Positions 27,001-61,529 of a stretch of 64,000 nucleotides of DNA are shown one piece after another. The stretch is from Obelidium mucronatum. Lineage: Eukaryota > Chytridiomycota > Chytridiomycetes > Chytridiales > Chytriomycetaceae. The position numbers were made by a program, and so were the translations under genes. Where the stretch lies: NCBI GenBank assembly GCA_025765595.1, contig JAIVFH010000133.1, positions 16,626-80,625 of the forward strand, read 5' to 3'. The first letter of the stretch is position 1. Each line of letters opens with the position of its first letter. The notes beneath the pieces are model-generated. The model saw only the letters and a list, made by a program, of their open reading frames with translations. It did no database searches and was not told where the DNA came from.

Positions 27001-28871
27001 AGGGGTCAACGGACGGTTGGAATTCGACTTCGGGGGCATCGAAAAGCTCTTGGAGGCGACGGAAGGAAATAAAAGAGTCACCAATGTTTGAGAGTTGGAG
27101 AGGCAGCCACATGACATGTTGACGAAGCTGAATATTCGGTTGAATGAAGGGGTGAATACATGTGCAACCAGAAACAAAAAAGAAATGAGCATACCTGGTT
27201 GAACAAAGCCAGCGACGAAAATATTTGAACTGGACCCAAGTTGTCGCTTACAGCTCCATACACCAAGAAAGTGATACTCGCAGCAAGAGCAGGAATCGCA
27301 AATCCCAAACAAGAAATAATACTTCTTATAAAGGCGGCATGGCGAACAAGAACAAGCTCTTCGTGCTCACGAATGCCAGAGACATTCTTCATGAATTGAG
27401 ACTCCCAACTGAAATATTTAATGATGCGGATTCCTTGCAAAATCTCAGACGACAGCTTGATGCGCTTGTCAGTCACGGGAGCAATCAAACCACGCAAAAC
27501 CATGAGCTTCTTGATCATGTATCCTTGAAACGGAAGACAGATGAACAAGAAGGCAACGCCGGCTAATCCAGGTGTTCCAATGATCACCATCAAGATGATG
27601 ATGGTTGTGAGGAAATAGATTGGCGCTGTCCAGACCATTTGGAGTTGTTGAAATGTTTGTTCGATGCGGCCGATATCTGTGGAGACTAAGTTTGTTAACT
27701 TGCCGGATGAGAATCGGGATCGACCGACGCCGTTGAGGCGTAATGATTTGCGGTATAGAGCGGTTGTGAGCATTCCTTTGACTCCGATGGCTACTTTTGA
27801 TGAATGGTGGAATACGGCGGCTTTTTTTTGTTGTTGTTGTTTGTTTGTTAGTTGTTTGATGCGTTGTTGTTGTGTATCACGTTAGAGAGAAGAAGAATAC
27901 ACCGCCTTTGGCGGTATACCATAGAAGAAAGAAGAAGGAGATACACCGCCGAAGACATATGCGGTAGACCAGCACCGCCTTCGGCGGTAAAATCACACCG
28001 CCTTCGGCGGTATAGAATACAAGAAAAAAGAAGGAGATACTCCGCCTACGGCGGTTAAGACCAATGCGGTAGAACAAAACCGCCTTCGGCGGTAAAATCA
28101 CATCGCCTTCGGCGATGTAGAATACAAGAAAGAAGAAGGAGATACTCCGCCTACGGCGGTTAAGACCAATGCGGTAGAACAACACCGCCTTCGGCGAACA
28201 CCGCCTTCGGCGGTAAAATCACACCGCCTTCGGCGGTGTAGAATACAAGAAAGAAGAAGGAGATGCAACGCCTTCGGCGTTAAAGAAAAATCACACCGCC
28301 TTCGGCGGTACAGAAAGTACCAACCATTCATAAGAGAAGCAGTGCAAGTCAACAAAAAAAACCCAAAAGCATAAAGAAAAGCGACATGAGCAGGAGGAGG
28401 ATCCGGTCCTTGCGAAGCAATAATACTCGTCAAGAGAGCTCGCATGACAATACTAGTCAAAGTCATGCACGCATCACCGATAATCTTTCCGATACCATAA
28501 ACAGGATAAGATCGATACATGTAGAGAATCGTATTGAGAACCGTCTTTCGTTCAACAGAATTGGTGGTAGCAGCAGCAGCAGCAGCCTTCTCATTGGCTT
28601 GAGCCAATAGAGTTTCAAATTGTTGGACCAAAAAGAGGGATCGTTGGGAGTCGTCGATTGCATACAGATCCTCCATTTCAAGCGGAGTCTTCCATCCCTT
28701 TTTGACTAGTTTGTCGAACCATGCGTTTGTCAGTTGTGACAGGAAGGAGGACTGGGCTTCCAAGCTTGGAAGGTGGGGTTGACTAATGTTCAAGGTATCG
28801 TTGGGGGATGAGGAGGGGTTGTTATTCGCTGTTGTCGTTGTCGTTGTTGCAGCTGTTGTTGTTGTTGGCAT
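24059..28871 (-). CDS. ABC transporter, ABCC/MRP type, copy D
   Basis: Full-length ABCC gene starting MPTTTTAATTTTTTANNN at 28871, with a Thr/Asn-rich leader before the SQPHLPSLEAQSSFLSQ motif shared with A. The exons are in the same order as in A and C; TMD2 and the NBD2 start are in a long exon (24766-25560). Walker A, LSGGQ, SVGQR and LDECTASVD are intact. The first intron (28324-27821, 504 bp) is several times longer than the corresponding introns of A-C because it carries an array of about 13 GC-rich micro-hairpins. An intron near 26410 contains a run of over 25 A. It is divergent from PEX12, with 137 bp between the start codons. Confidence 0.85.
27900..28310 (-). repeat. Intronic micro-hairpin array in ABCC-D (about 13 units)
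   Basis: Fills most of intron 1. On the gene-sense (minus) strand the units read ACCGCC-GAA-GGCGGT with variants ATCGCC/GGCGAT, AACGCC/GGCGTT and loop GTA. A longer period of about 105-120 bp is visible, made of two or three hairpins plus a CTCCTTCTTCTTTCTTGTATTCTA spacer. One unit (27900) has loop AAA, and one near 27946 is broken. Confidence 0.85.
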
Positions 28872-29008
28872 TTGACGGCCGTTGAATACAGGAAAGTCAA
28901 ATTTTTGAAATTGAGATTTCCAAAAAGAAAAAGCGACAGACTTCCGTTCCGCTCCGGCACACTGTTTTAATTTGCAATTGTGATTTGAAATCGCGAAAAC
29001 AGAAAAGA

Positions 29009-59786: not shown

Positions 59787-59841
59787 TCGATCTCTTTTCT
59801 TTTTATTTTTATTTATTTTTATTTATCGAAAGTCAGTAAAA
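59787..59841. promoter_or_regulatory. 55-bp bidirectional promoter
   Basis: Entire gap between the J-domain and MetAP2 start codons. T/A-rich with TTTATTTTTATTTATTTT repeats; no TATA or obvious factor site. Confidence 0.5.
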
Positions 59842-61529
59842 ATGACAGTTGCAGCCACCGCATCGCCTTTGGATCCCGCGGCGGCGGCGGCCCAGCCGGC
59901 GGCGGCGGCGGAGAAAGCTGCGCAATTGAACGGCGCCGACGCCGAAGAAGGCGACGACGACGACGAGGACGGCGACGAGGAGGCTGGCGGCGACTCGCCA
60001 GGTGAACTCTTGCTTTTCGCTTCACTCACCGTGCTCACTGTGCTCACCGCTCGCGGCAGACAAGAAAAAAAAGAAAAAGAAAAAGAAAAGCAAAGCAAAA
60101 AAGAAGGCCGAGAAGGCGTCCGTGCGCAACGACACGCCGCAGACAGCGCCGCCGTCGGTGCCCGTGGCGCAGCTGTTCAACGGCGTGTTTCCCGTCGGCG
60201 AAATCCAGGAATACACGCATGTCGACAACACGTTCCGCTTCACGAGCGAGGAGAAGCGCGCCGCCGAGCGTCTGCATTTCGACGAGTACAACGAGATCAG
60301 ACAGGCCGCAGAGGTCCACAGACAGGTGCGGAGTTATGCCCGCAGCGTCATCAAGCCGGGAATGAGCATGATTGAGATTTGCGAAACTATCGAAAACGGA
60401 ACACGCACTCTGATTGAGGAGCGGGGCTTGGATGCTGGTAACTCTTACTCTTTTTGTTGGTCTTAACTCTTAACACACATACTCAATATACACAAAAGGT
60501 ATCGCCTTCCCAACTGGTTGCTCCTTGAACCACGTTGCTGCTCACTACACTCCTAATGCTGGAGACACCACTGTCCTCAAATACGATGACGTCATGAAGA
60601 TTGATTTTGGAACTCACATTGGTGGAAAGATTATTGATTGTGCTTTCACGGTCGCCTTCAACCCTACTTATGATCGTCTTTTGGAGGCTGTAAAAGATGC
60701 TACAAATACTGGTATCAAACAAGCCGGTATTGATGTTCGTCTTTGTGATATTGGTGCCGCTGTTCAAGAAGTTATGGAATCTTATGAAGTTGAGATTGGT
60801 GGAAAGACTTATCAAGGTTTTTTTTTTTTTTTTTTTTTTTTTCACTTCACCGCCGAAGGCGGTGTTGTGTACGCCGAAGGCGTGATTCCGTCGCCGAAGG
60901 CGACATGCCACCGCCGAAGGCGGTGTTGCTTACGCCGAAGGCGTGATTCTTTGCCTTTGGCGAAAAATACTCTAGACTAAAACATTCACCCAGTCAAACC
61001 AATCAGAAACTTGAATGGACACTCTATCGAAAAATACAAGATCCATGCTGGAAAGTCTGTGCCAATTGTCGATAATGGCGATCAAACTAAAATGGAGGAA
61101 GGAGAGTACTTTGCCATTGAAACTTTTGGAAGTACTGGACGCGGTTACGTAATGGAAGACATGGAATGCAGTCACTACATGAGAAATTGGGAAGTAGCTC
61201 GTGCGCCTTTGAAGCTGCCTCGTGCCAAACAGCTTTTGAGTACCATCAACGATCGATTTGGTACTCTTGCCTTCTGGTAATGAATGACATCAACAAATTT
61301 AACAGTCATATGCTTGTTCAACTGATCAACATATTACAGTCGCAGATACTTGGATCGCATCGGAGAAACAAAGTACCTTGTGGCACTGAAACAACTTGTG
61401 GATTCGGGTCTTGTCAACCCATACCCACCTCTCGTTGACTCTGCAGGTTCTTTTACTGCTCAATACGAACATACGATTCTCTTGAGACCAACCTGCAAGG
61501 AAGTTATCAGTCGTGGAGATGATTATTGA
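59842..61529 (+). CDS. MAP2: Methionine aminopeptidase 2
   Basis: Five or six exons. The Ala-rich acidic start ([17 protein letters not shown]) and Lys-rich stretch ([16 protein letters not shown]) are the ribosome-associated N-terminus of MetAP2. The pita-bread fold follows. The substrate-pocket His lies in [14 protein letters not shown]; metal ligands are the two Asp in [18 protein letters not shown], His in [11 protein letters not shown], Glu in [15 protein letters not shown] and the last Glu in [11 protein letters not shown]. All are present, so the enzyme should be active in removing initiator Met from nascent chains and would be of the fumagillin-sensitive class. Intron 60817-60993 holds six micro-hairpins. 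The first two exons are very GC-rich, later ones not. Confidence 0.93.
60849..60964 (+). repeat. Intronic micro-hairpin array in MetAP2 (six units)
   Basis: Stems ACCGCC/GGCGGT (twice), ACGCC/GGCGT (twice), GTCGCC/GGCGAC and a last GCC-TTT-GGC. The first five have GAA loops on the sense strand, the last is inverted in loop sense. Spacing is 20-22 bp between units, the densest of all arrays here; preceded by a run of about 23 T. Confidence 0.85.

Follow-up and report, generated by a model that had tools for sequence, protein, structure and literature searches.

Short double-hairpin repeats, probably selfish, form a nuclear family in introns and intergenic DNA of the chytrid Obelidium mucronatum

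Results

Hairpin arrays in five introns of a 64-kb window

We analysed a 64,000-nucleotide stretch of the Obelidium mucronatum genome (assembly GCA_025765595.1, contig JAIVFH010000133.1, positions 16,626 to 80,625 of the forward strand; hereafter ‘the window’), in which a preliminary description had pointed to a family of short hairpins in introns of unrelated genes. A search of the window for CCGCC-GAA-GGCGG (CCGCCGAAGGCGG) with up to 2 mismatches gave 38 rows; sites 28042, 28147, 41341 and 41401 appear on both strands, leaving 34 distinct near-matches in five introns. Shuffled windows gave a mean of 0.92 matches and a maximum of 4, and 38 was reached in 0 of 100 shuffles. We favour, with some caution, the view that these hairpins belong to a nuclear family of short double-hairpin repeats. 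The host introns, and the region between two of the host genes, are as follows.

27821..28324, minus strand: ABCC-D intron 1, 504 nt, 12 hairpins at 27901-28309
28872..29008, no strand: short intergenic (promoter) region of the divergent pair ABCC-D (minus) and PEX12 (plus), with hairpin arrays flanking both sides
29912..30044, plus strand: PEX12 intron, 133 nt, two hairpins at 29933-29967, start-to-start distance 20 nt
31359..31513, plus strand: SWIB (SMARCD-type) intron, 155 nt, a single degenerate hairpin at 31447-31459
41180..41753, plus strand: ARPC1 intron, 574 nt, 14 hairpins at 41203-41675
60817..60993, plus strand: MetAP2 intron, 177 nt, five hairpins at 60848-60944

The preliminary description had counted about 37 copies. 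Its numbers for PEX12 (2), the SWIB/SMARCD-type gene (1) and ARPC1 (14) stand, while about 13 in ABCC-D become 12 and six in MetAP2 become five. The remainder are degenerate, including a broken copy in ABCC-D at ~27944 and a sixth in MetAP2 at ~60952, and the copy reported at the acceptor of a J-domain gene, GCCAAAGGC with a 4-bp stem at 59103, we take to be a chance match. Apart from 59103, a pattern search combined with gene models made with the hairpins masked found no copy outside introns in the window; this bears out the statement that exon interiors and intergenic DNA here are free of hairpins, although masking disfavours exon calls.

The ARPC1 protein of O. mucronatum is uninterrupted across the join of the hairpin-bearing intron, with 293 of 305 residues matching; the Peptidase_M24 domain likewise continues across the MetAP2 join, and the SWIB domain across the spliced join of the SMARCD-type gene. 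In PEX12, Pex2_Pex12 pieces were found in exons upstream of the host intron, whose acceptor is supported by reading frame only. For ABCC-D, support for the join comes from the paralogous introns described below. All 12 ABCC-D hairpins carry their GAA, GTA or AAA loop on the gene-sense (minus) strand. The MetAP2 stems are CCGCC/GGCGG, ACGCC/GGCGT and TCGCC/GGCGA. Hairpins with a loop of 5 are also in excess in the window (35 vs 19.2 in shuffled sequence).

Paralogous ABCC introns lack hairpins

Positions 12184-28871 of the window hold a minus-strand tandem cluster of ABCC-type genes, two of whose introns 1 are almost identical. The position of intron 1 is the same in ABCC-A, ABCC-B and ABCC-D, with 0, 0 and 12 hairpins respectively. 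The two introns that serve as hairpin-free controls are:

15989..16045, minus strand: ABCC-A intron 1, 57 nt
18849..18904, minus strand: ABCC-B intron 1, 56 nt

The ABCC-D array thus occupies an intron that ABCC-A and ABCC-B possess in hairpin-free form, the presence and absence of hairpins being seen among paralogs only. The difference between an intron of 504 nt with hairpins and introns of 56–57 nt without them therefore suggests that arrays enter existing introns.

The family is abundant and dispersed in the genome

The 48.3-Mb genome contains 908+844 exact copies of the 13-mer, against 0+3 of its reversed control. The pattern ACCGCCNNNGGCGGT has 2,343 genome sites against 7 for its reversed control, and an excess was also obtained for the WCGCCGAAGGCGW variant (595 sites, control 4), a GCA-loop variant (291, control 24) and a variant with T at the first stem pair (213, control 21). 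On one strand, all loops at the 50 ACCGCCNNNGGCGGT sites listed read GAA or GTA, except for a single ATA. The window shuffles and the whole-genome search proposed in the preliminary description speak for a true family, and an artefact of composition is ruled out by the shuffles and the reversed-pattern controls. The unit is dispersed over many contigs, and an array of 15 hairpins was present in one of four 10-kb stretches chosen regardless of hairpins. The alignments among arrays c5, c15, c27 and c31, which lie on different contigs, extend over 369–553 bp at 71–81%, lengths that are inflated by internal repeats; in array-to-array alignments, every one of the best three matches listed is on the same strand.

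By itself the single hairpin ACCGCCGAAGGCGGT has low specificity, being found in at least 120 stretches of a viral collection. Exact tandem pairs occur in 7 viral-collection and 119 bacterial stretches; no more than 8 hairpins lie at any one of these 126 loci, the 25 listed have a GC content of 0.53–0.76, and we treat them as unrelated. Exact tandem pairs of the same hairpin were seen on seven contigs of one Deltaproteobacteria bin (JAGOGO01; L175, L181, L182, L185, L201, L202 and L206), where they are perhaps a separate bacterial repeat family. A search for related arrays via mis-annotated proteins, using one array open frame and 11 candidates, gave no match.

Anatomy of the double-hairpin unit

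Along the unit, T-rich DNA leads into a hairpin of ~13–15 nt; a short linker separates this from a second hairpin, placed 20 nt downstream in the commonest arrangement, and more T-rich DNA follows. The triloop is mainly GAA and less often GTA, AAA or GCA. In the window and 20 loci, the GCC-N3-GGC family is the only one that stands out among perfect loop-3 hairpins (cores: 118 GAA, 20 GTA, 8 AAA), and the spacing of consecutive cores peaks at 20 nt. With seven later loci added, giving 28 sequences in all, 78 pairs lie at exactly 20 nt, from 16 of the 28; this is the tandem two-hairpin arrangement that marks the double-hairpin elements (DHE) and repetitive hairpin-forming elements (RHE) of mitochondrial DNA (mtDNA). 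The consensus of the 20-nt pairs is TACCGCCGAAGGCGG-atccct-ACCGCCGAAGGCGGT with T-rich flanks. In 147 pairs at 18–22 nt, the longer stem is the second in 75 and the first in 29, the two being equal in 43. The core, the 20-nt spacing and linkers such as GGATCCCTACC recur at unrelated loci, which requires that these loci shared a source at least once.

Stem changes are often, though not always, compensatory. In the window and the first 20 loci, stem pair 2 is Watson–Crick in 84% of cases vs 58% expected, and pair 3 in 65% vs 41%. Counted once per cluster, the paired types at position 2 are CG (37), TA (13) and AT (13). Genome-wide, W..W sites are complementary in 97 of 100 listed and not in 3. 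GNA triloops are unusually stable in DNA. The folding tool returned one energy for all six loops tested, and was therefore unable to test whether the loop preference follows stability.

Units are also repeated head to tail, as in minisatellites: a 79-bp unit is present 12.4 times in L281 and a 39-bp unit is repeated in L144, whose copies differ by one such unit (hairpin plus flank), gained or lost. Single and paired hairpins exist beside the arrays, and array size ranges from one hairpin to 38. A very long series of GCA-loop hairpins, with a period of ~78 bp, lies at C22:331108-333956. Hairpins that face the opposite way are rare. Of the ten arrays of at least three hairpins that include one, six have it at the very downstream end and two in the next position inwards, and in the remaining two (L140, L141) it lies elsewhere. 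Such a terminal or next-to-terminal hairpin, as in L132, L139, L144, L277, L279 and L281, could be an end structure of the array.

Most hairpins are intronic and in sense orientation

The gene finder, after training on the window, was run again with the hairpins masked, since the unmasked run called hairpins exons; the lack of hairpins in model exons is therefore partly by construction. It over-calls genes, leaving ~6% intergenic, and uses T-richness. In the 28 sequences, predicted introns hold 334 of 350 hairpins, 323 sense and 11 antisense, with 16 intergenic; we judge 28 of the 334 intronic calls (L129, L141) doubtful. Since 304 of the 350 come from loci fetched for holding hairpins, they are not a random sample. 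In five unselected sequences (the window and L145–L148), all 46 hairpins lie in predicted introns, all sense. The preliminary description had noted long host introns, up to 574 bp. This holds: host introns in the window measure 133–574 nt, and predicted introns with hairpins have a median of 305 nt and a maximum of 1,135 (n=47), vs a median of 68 nt for those without (n=545).

Of ten host pieces scanned outside the window, five have a Pfam domain that bridges the array join (GH35, Hus1, BCS1 AAA, G-alpha and aspartate-semialdehyde dehydrogenase); in the others, domains lie beside the join (phosphatase, muskelin, ABC transporter and DUF3591 protein) or, in one, there is no family. In the seven introns whose join is spanned by homology, namely those of ARPC1, MetAP2 and the five just named, the GAA-type loop is sense in 114 of 120 hairpins and antisense in 6. 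For most copies, then, the strand with the GAA-type loop and the pyrimidine-rich strand are the sense strand.

The family had at first been described as nuclear and intron-restricted. It is nuclear and mostly in spliceosomal introns, but strict restriction is ruled out by intergenic arrays outside the window (L129 5598-5652, L144 5692-6549 and L279 4777-4885). A further array, L129 3955-4372, is placed after a stop codon and before the following ATG, most of it labelled by the finder as intron of a doubtful gene, and that at L141 4602-5351 begins just after an in-frame stop though labelled intron, and is perhaps non-intronic. The T fraction of the context is 0.44 for intronic and 0.43 for non-intronic arrays, the flanks on the GAA strand being equally T-rich; the orientation rule may thus reflect which strand is pyrimidine-rich, not transcription as such.

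Neighbouring arrays follow a minus-then-plus rule

Neighbouring clusters 100–5,000 bp apart are minus-plus in 22 cases, plus-minus in 1, plus-plus in 3 and minus-minus in 1 (binomial P 6e-6 for 22 vs 1). The count is based on 129 hand-compiled clusters among the matches listed and is incomplete beyond contig C8; lone matches on further contigs were left out, and among them we noticed no additional pair within 5 kb. Opposite hairpins < 100 bp apart were omitted or merged (C1:375906/375944, C7:323692/323775, C7:414899/414955, C7:449275/449376 and C8:299860/299873). Three of the 22 pairs (C8:257/260, C14 and C33:260/262) depend on a hairpin with a mismatched outer pair, and their exclusion leaves 19 vs 1; pairs first found in searches made after the pattern was noticed stand at 9 vs 1. 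Clusters > 20 kb apart show no minus-plus excess (22 plus-minus, 20 plus-plus, 9 minus-plus, 9 minus-minus), and predicted neighbouring genes are divergent in 36 cases and convergent in 34.

We fetched 13 minus-plus pairs, seven of which (L275–L281) were chosen because the matches listed showed them as such. A minus gene, a gap and a plus gene were predicted in seven of the 13 (the window, L133, L139, L143, L278, L280 and L281), the weak points being L139, with just 19 bp of the plus gene, and L143, whose left hairpin is itself labelled intergenic. Three (L275, L276 and L277) have the minus-to-plus switch with extra predicted genes, and three (L129, L144 and L279) have no convincing pair of genes.

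Neighbours have stem subtypes in common beyond chance (P 0.00035 and 0.0001, by permutation within ascertainment groups), and restricting the test to the six pairs that come from the window or from the 13-mer search gives P 0.03 and 0.017. The two inverted neighbours in L278 are each other's best match (76% over 618 bp), and in L279 the short array's best match is its neighbour, the reverse ranking sixth. Neighbours rank 2 and 10 in L139 and 3 and 13 in L129; ranks are poor for ABCC-D/PEX12 (24, 20), L144 27/28 and L277 (21, 8).

Discussion

Relation to known hairpin repeats

Short hairpins, often in tandem pairs, are described for the DHE of Allomyces mtDNA (Paquin et al. 2000) and the RHE of sponge mtDNA (both via excerpts of PMC2800124 and PMC7218506). 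The chytrid repeats share with these the short hairpins, often two in tandem, the conserved stems, and a distribution both dispersed and locally clustered in non-coding DNA. The likeness to mitochondrial double-hairpin elements that the preliminary description proposed is strengthened because the pair spacing is 20 nt. Unlike the DHE and RHE of those excerpts, the chytrid family is nuclear, on contigs with nuclear genes and spliceosomal introns, mostly sense, pyrimidine-flanked and minus-plus paired between neighbouring genes. In Volvox carteri, according to excerpts of PMC2670323, short organelle palindromes lie in introns and intergenic DNA, and their nuclear copies, ~0.06% of nuclear DNA and many with stem mismatches, were judged inert organelle transfers; the chytrid nuclear copies, by contrast, are many and lie in arrays. 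Fusarium mtDNA has optional palindromes that are associated with indels, but these are mitochondrial and outside spliceosomal introns (PMC7218506, in excerpt). In the open-licence PMC literature we found no report of hairpin elements in nuclear spliceosomal introns. New here are the double hairpin as the unit, the compensatory stem changes, the entry of arrays into existing introns, and the minus-plus order and shared stem subtypes of neighbouring arrays. The preliminary description had also missed the bias of the loop towards the sense strand and the Volvox precedent for nuclear copies of organelle palindromes.

A proposed nuclear counterpart of double-hairpin elements

On balance we lean towards reading these short double-hairpin repeats as a nuclear family, probably selfish, a proliferating counterpart of the mitochondrial elements that would be copied at the DNA level. 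Its dispersal, the pairing, the tandem units and the sharing between neighbours are visible in the sequence; how the family copies itself, we infer. A hairpin on a transiently single strand might promote template switching, or copying into a pyrimidine-rich strand close by, and negative supercoiling (or diverging forks) between divergent genes might help. Unequal exchange and slippage would then alter array length, and selection would purge copies in exons and on the wrong intron strand, spliced sense copies being tolerated. We also put forward, as a tentative and rather doubtful extension, that strand-asymmetric copying centred on divergent promoters writes arrays into introns of both flanking genes. 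The GNA-loop strand would then point away from the shared promoter on both sides, and arrays would be a record either of negative supercoiling between diverging polymerases or of replication forks moving outwards, and would swap sequence with one another, inverted, across the promoter.

Several results weigh against this account of a copying family. We caught no insertion with clean ends or a target-site duplication, and no mobilising enzyme came to light: PF01797 (Y1/RAYT) has 0 matches in the genome, the profile having matches in 5 of 14 control genomes. The genome has 12 Helitron_like_N matches, two of those listed having internal stops; any link of these matches to the hairpins would be conjecture. 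The finder's strand counts are partly circular because it uses T-richness. Stem pair 1 is paired as expected (92 vs 91%) and pairs 4 and 5 fall below expectation; mismatched types at pair 2 occur in many clusters (TG 11, CA 9, AG 6, CC 5 and rarer ones); and only 595 of 871 A/T/G-start sites end in A or T, so that roughly a third are not compensated. Tandem copies, moreover, lack independence. The five omitted cases of opposite hairpins < 100 bp apart are all plus-then-minus, mostly at the downstream array end, and their inclusion would add five plus-minus. Most neighbouring arrays are not mutual closest matches, and masked 12-mers are common to 2 of 12 neighbour pairs vs 28 of 516 other pairs. 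Finally, the empty-site comparison is of one locus, ABCC-A and ABCC-B vs ABCC-D, with ABCC-C left out (second exon without a motif match).

Alternative explanations

The arrays could instead be locally born minisatellites, slippage in pyrimidine-rich DNA having built each in place and hairpin-templated correction having kept the stems paired, with nothing moving. The tandem periods, the one-unit length difference between L144 copies and the equal T-rich context of intronic and non-intronic arrays would fit; we nevertheless think this unlikely, given the core, spacing and linkers common to unrelated loci. Less likely still is that the hairpins are functional RNA elements, kept by selection, which join splice sites or regulate splicing in the pre-mRNA. 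Their sense orientation and compensated stems agree with such a role, as does the ARPC1 intron, the one intron folded, whose RNA has a better fold than any of 100 shuffles (z -7.4). The same sequences, however, occur in intergenic arrays, paralogs carry the same intron without hairpins, array size is highly variable, and the folding tool gives identical RNA energy for either loop orientation.

That the copies were moved to the nucleus from mitochondrial hairpin elements (the GCCGAAGGC hairpin) and are now inert has the precedent of the double-hairpin elements in Allomyces mtDNA (as described in excerpts of PMC2800124) and of the explanation proposed for the Volvox nuclear palindromes (PMC2670323, in excerpt), yet copies here are numerous, often perfect and array-forming, and we regard this origin as very unlikely. 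The mtDNA was not found in the assembly, COX1 and cytochrome b having 0 matches in searches that both ignore introns. Introners and introner-like elements also place a repeated sequence in introns of many unrelated genes (cf. PMC4457414 and PMC9860276), and the arrays might be mobile elements that create new introns. This we consider highly improbable, since at the one comparable locus ABCC-D intron 1 is co-positioned with hairpin-free paralogous introns; the shared position means that at ABCC-D the intron came without the repeat, so that the element did not create it. Another comparison comes from bacteria. REP/BIME palindromes, which have a RAYT transposase, are paired short palindromes dispersed in non-coding DNA. 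The chytrid hairpins differ in lying in introns, in a genome without a Y1/RAYT match, and we reject a REP/RAYT system.

In the literature cited, hairpin elements are organelle repeats, and the nuclear copies reported for Volvox were judged inert (PMC2670323, in excerpt). Should the chytrid hairpins prove to be a nuclear family that proliferates in spliceosomal introns, this would mean that repeats as small as these are able to spread through chromosomes with no evident enzyme and to enlarge introns, in the predicted models from ~70 nt to > 1 kb; the minus-plus rule for neighbouring arrays makes the mechanism testable.

Other observations

The hairpin/LRR tandem region at C7:416619 has a copy at C466:3153-4228, 100% identical over the 541-bp query, which is a haplotig or a recent duplication. 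In three host genes of the window coding GC drops along the gene, by thirds: 0.71/0.66/0.45 in PEX12 (29009-30140), 0.65/0.55/0.47 in ARPC1 (40431-42051) and 0.62/0.44/0.45 in MetAP2 (59842-61528). Two similar plus-strand open frames ~5.6 kb apart, at 33047-33682 and 38644-39264, look by eye like duplicated membrane-transporter genes.

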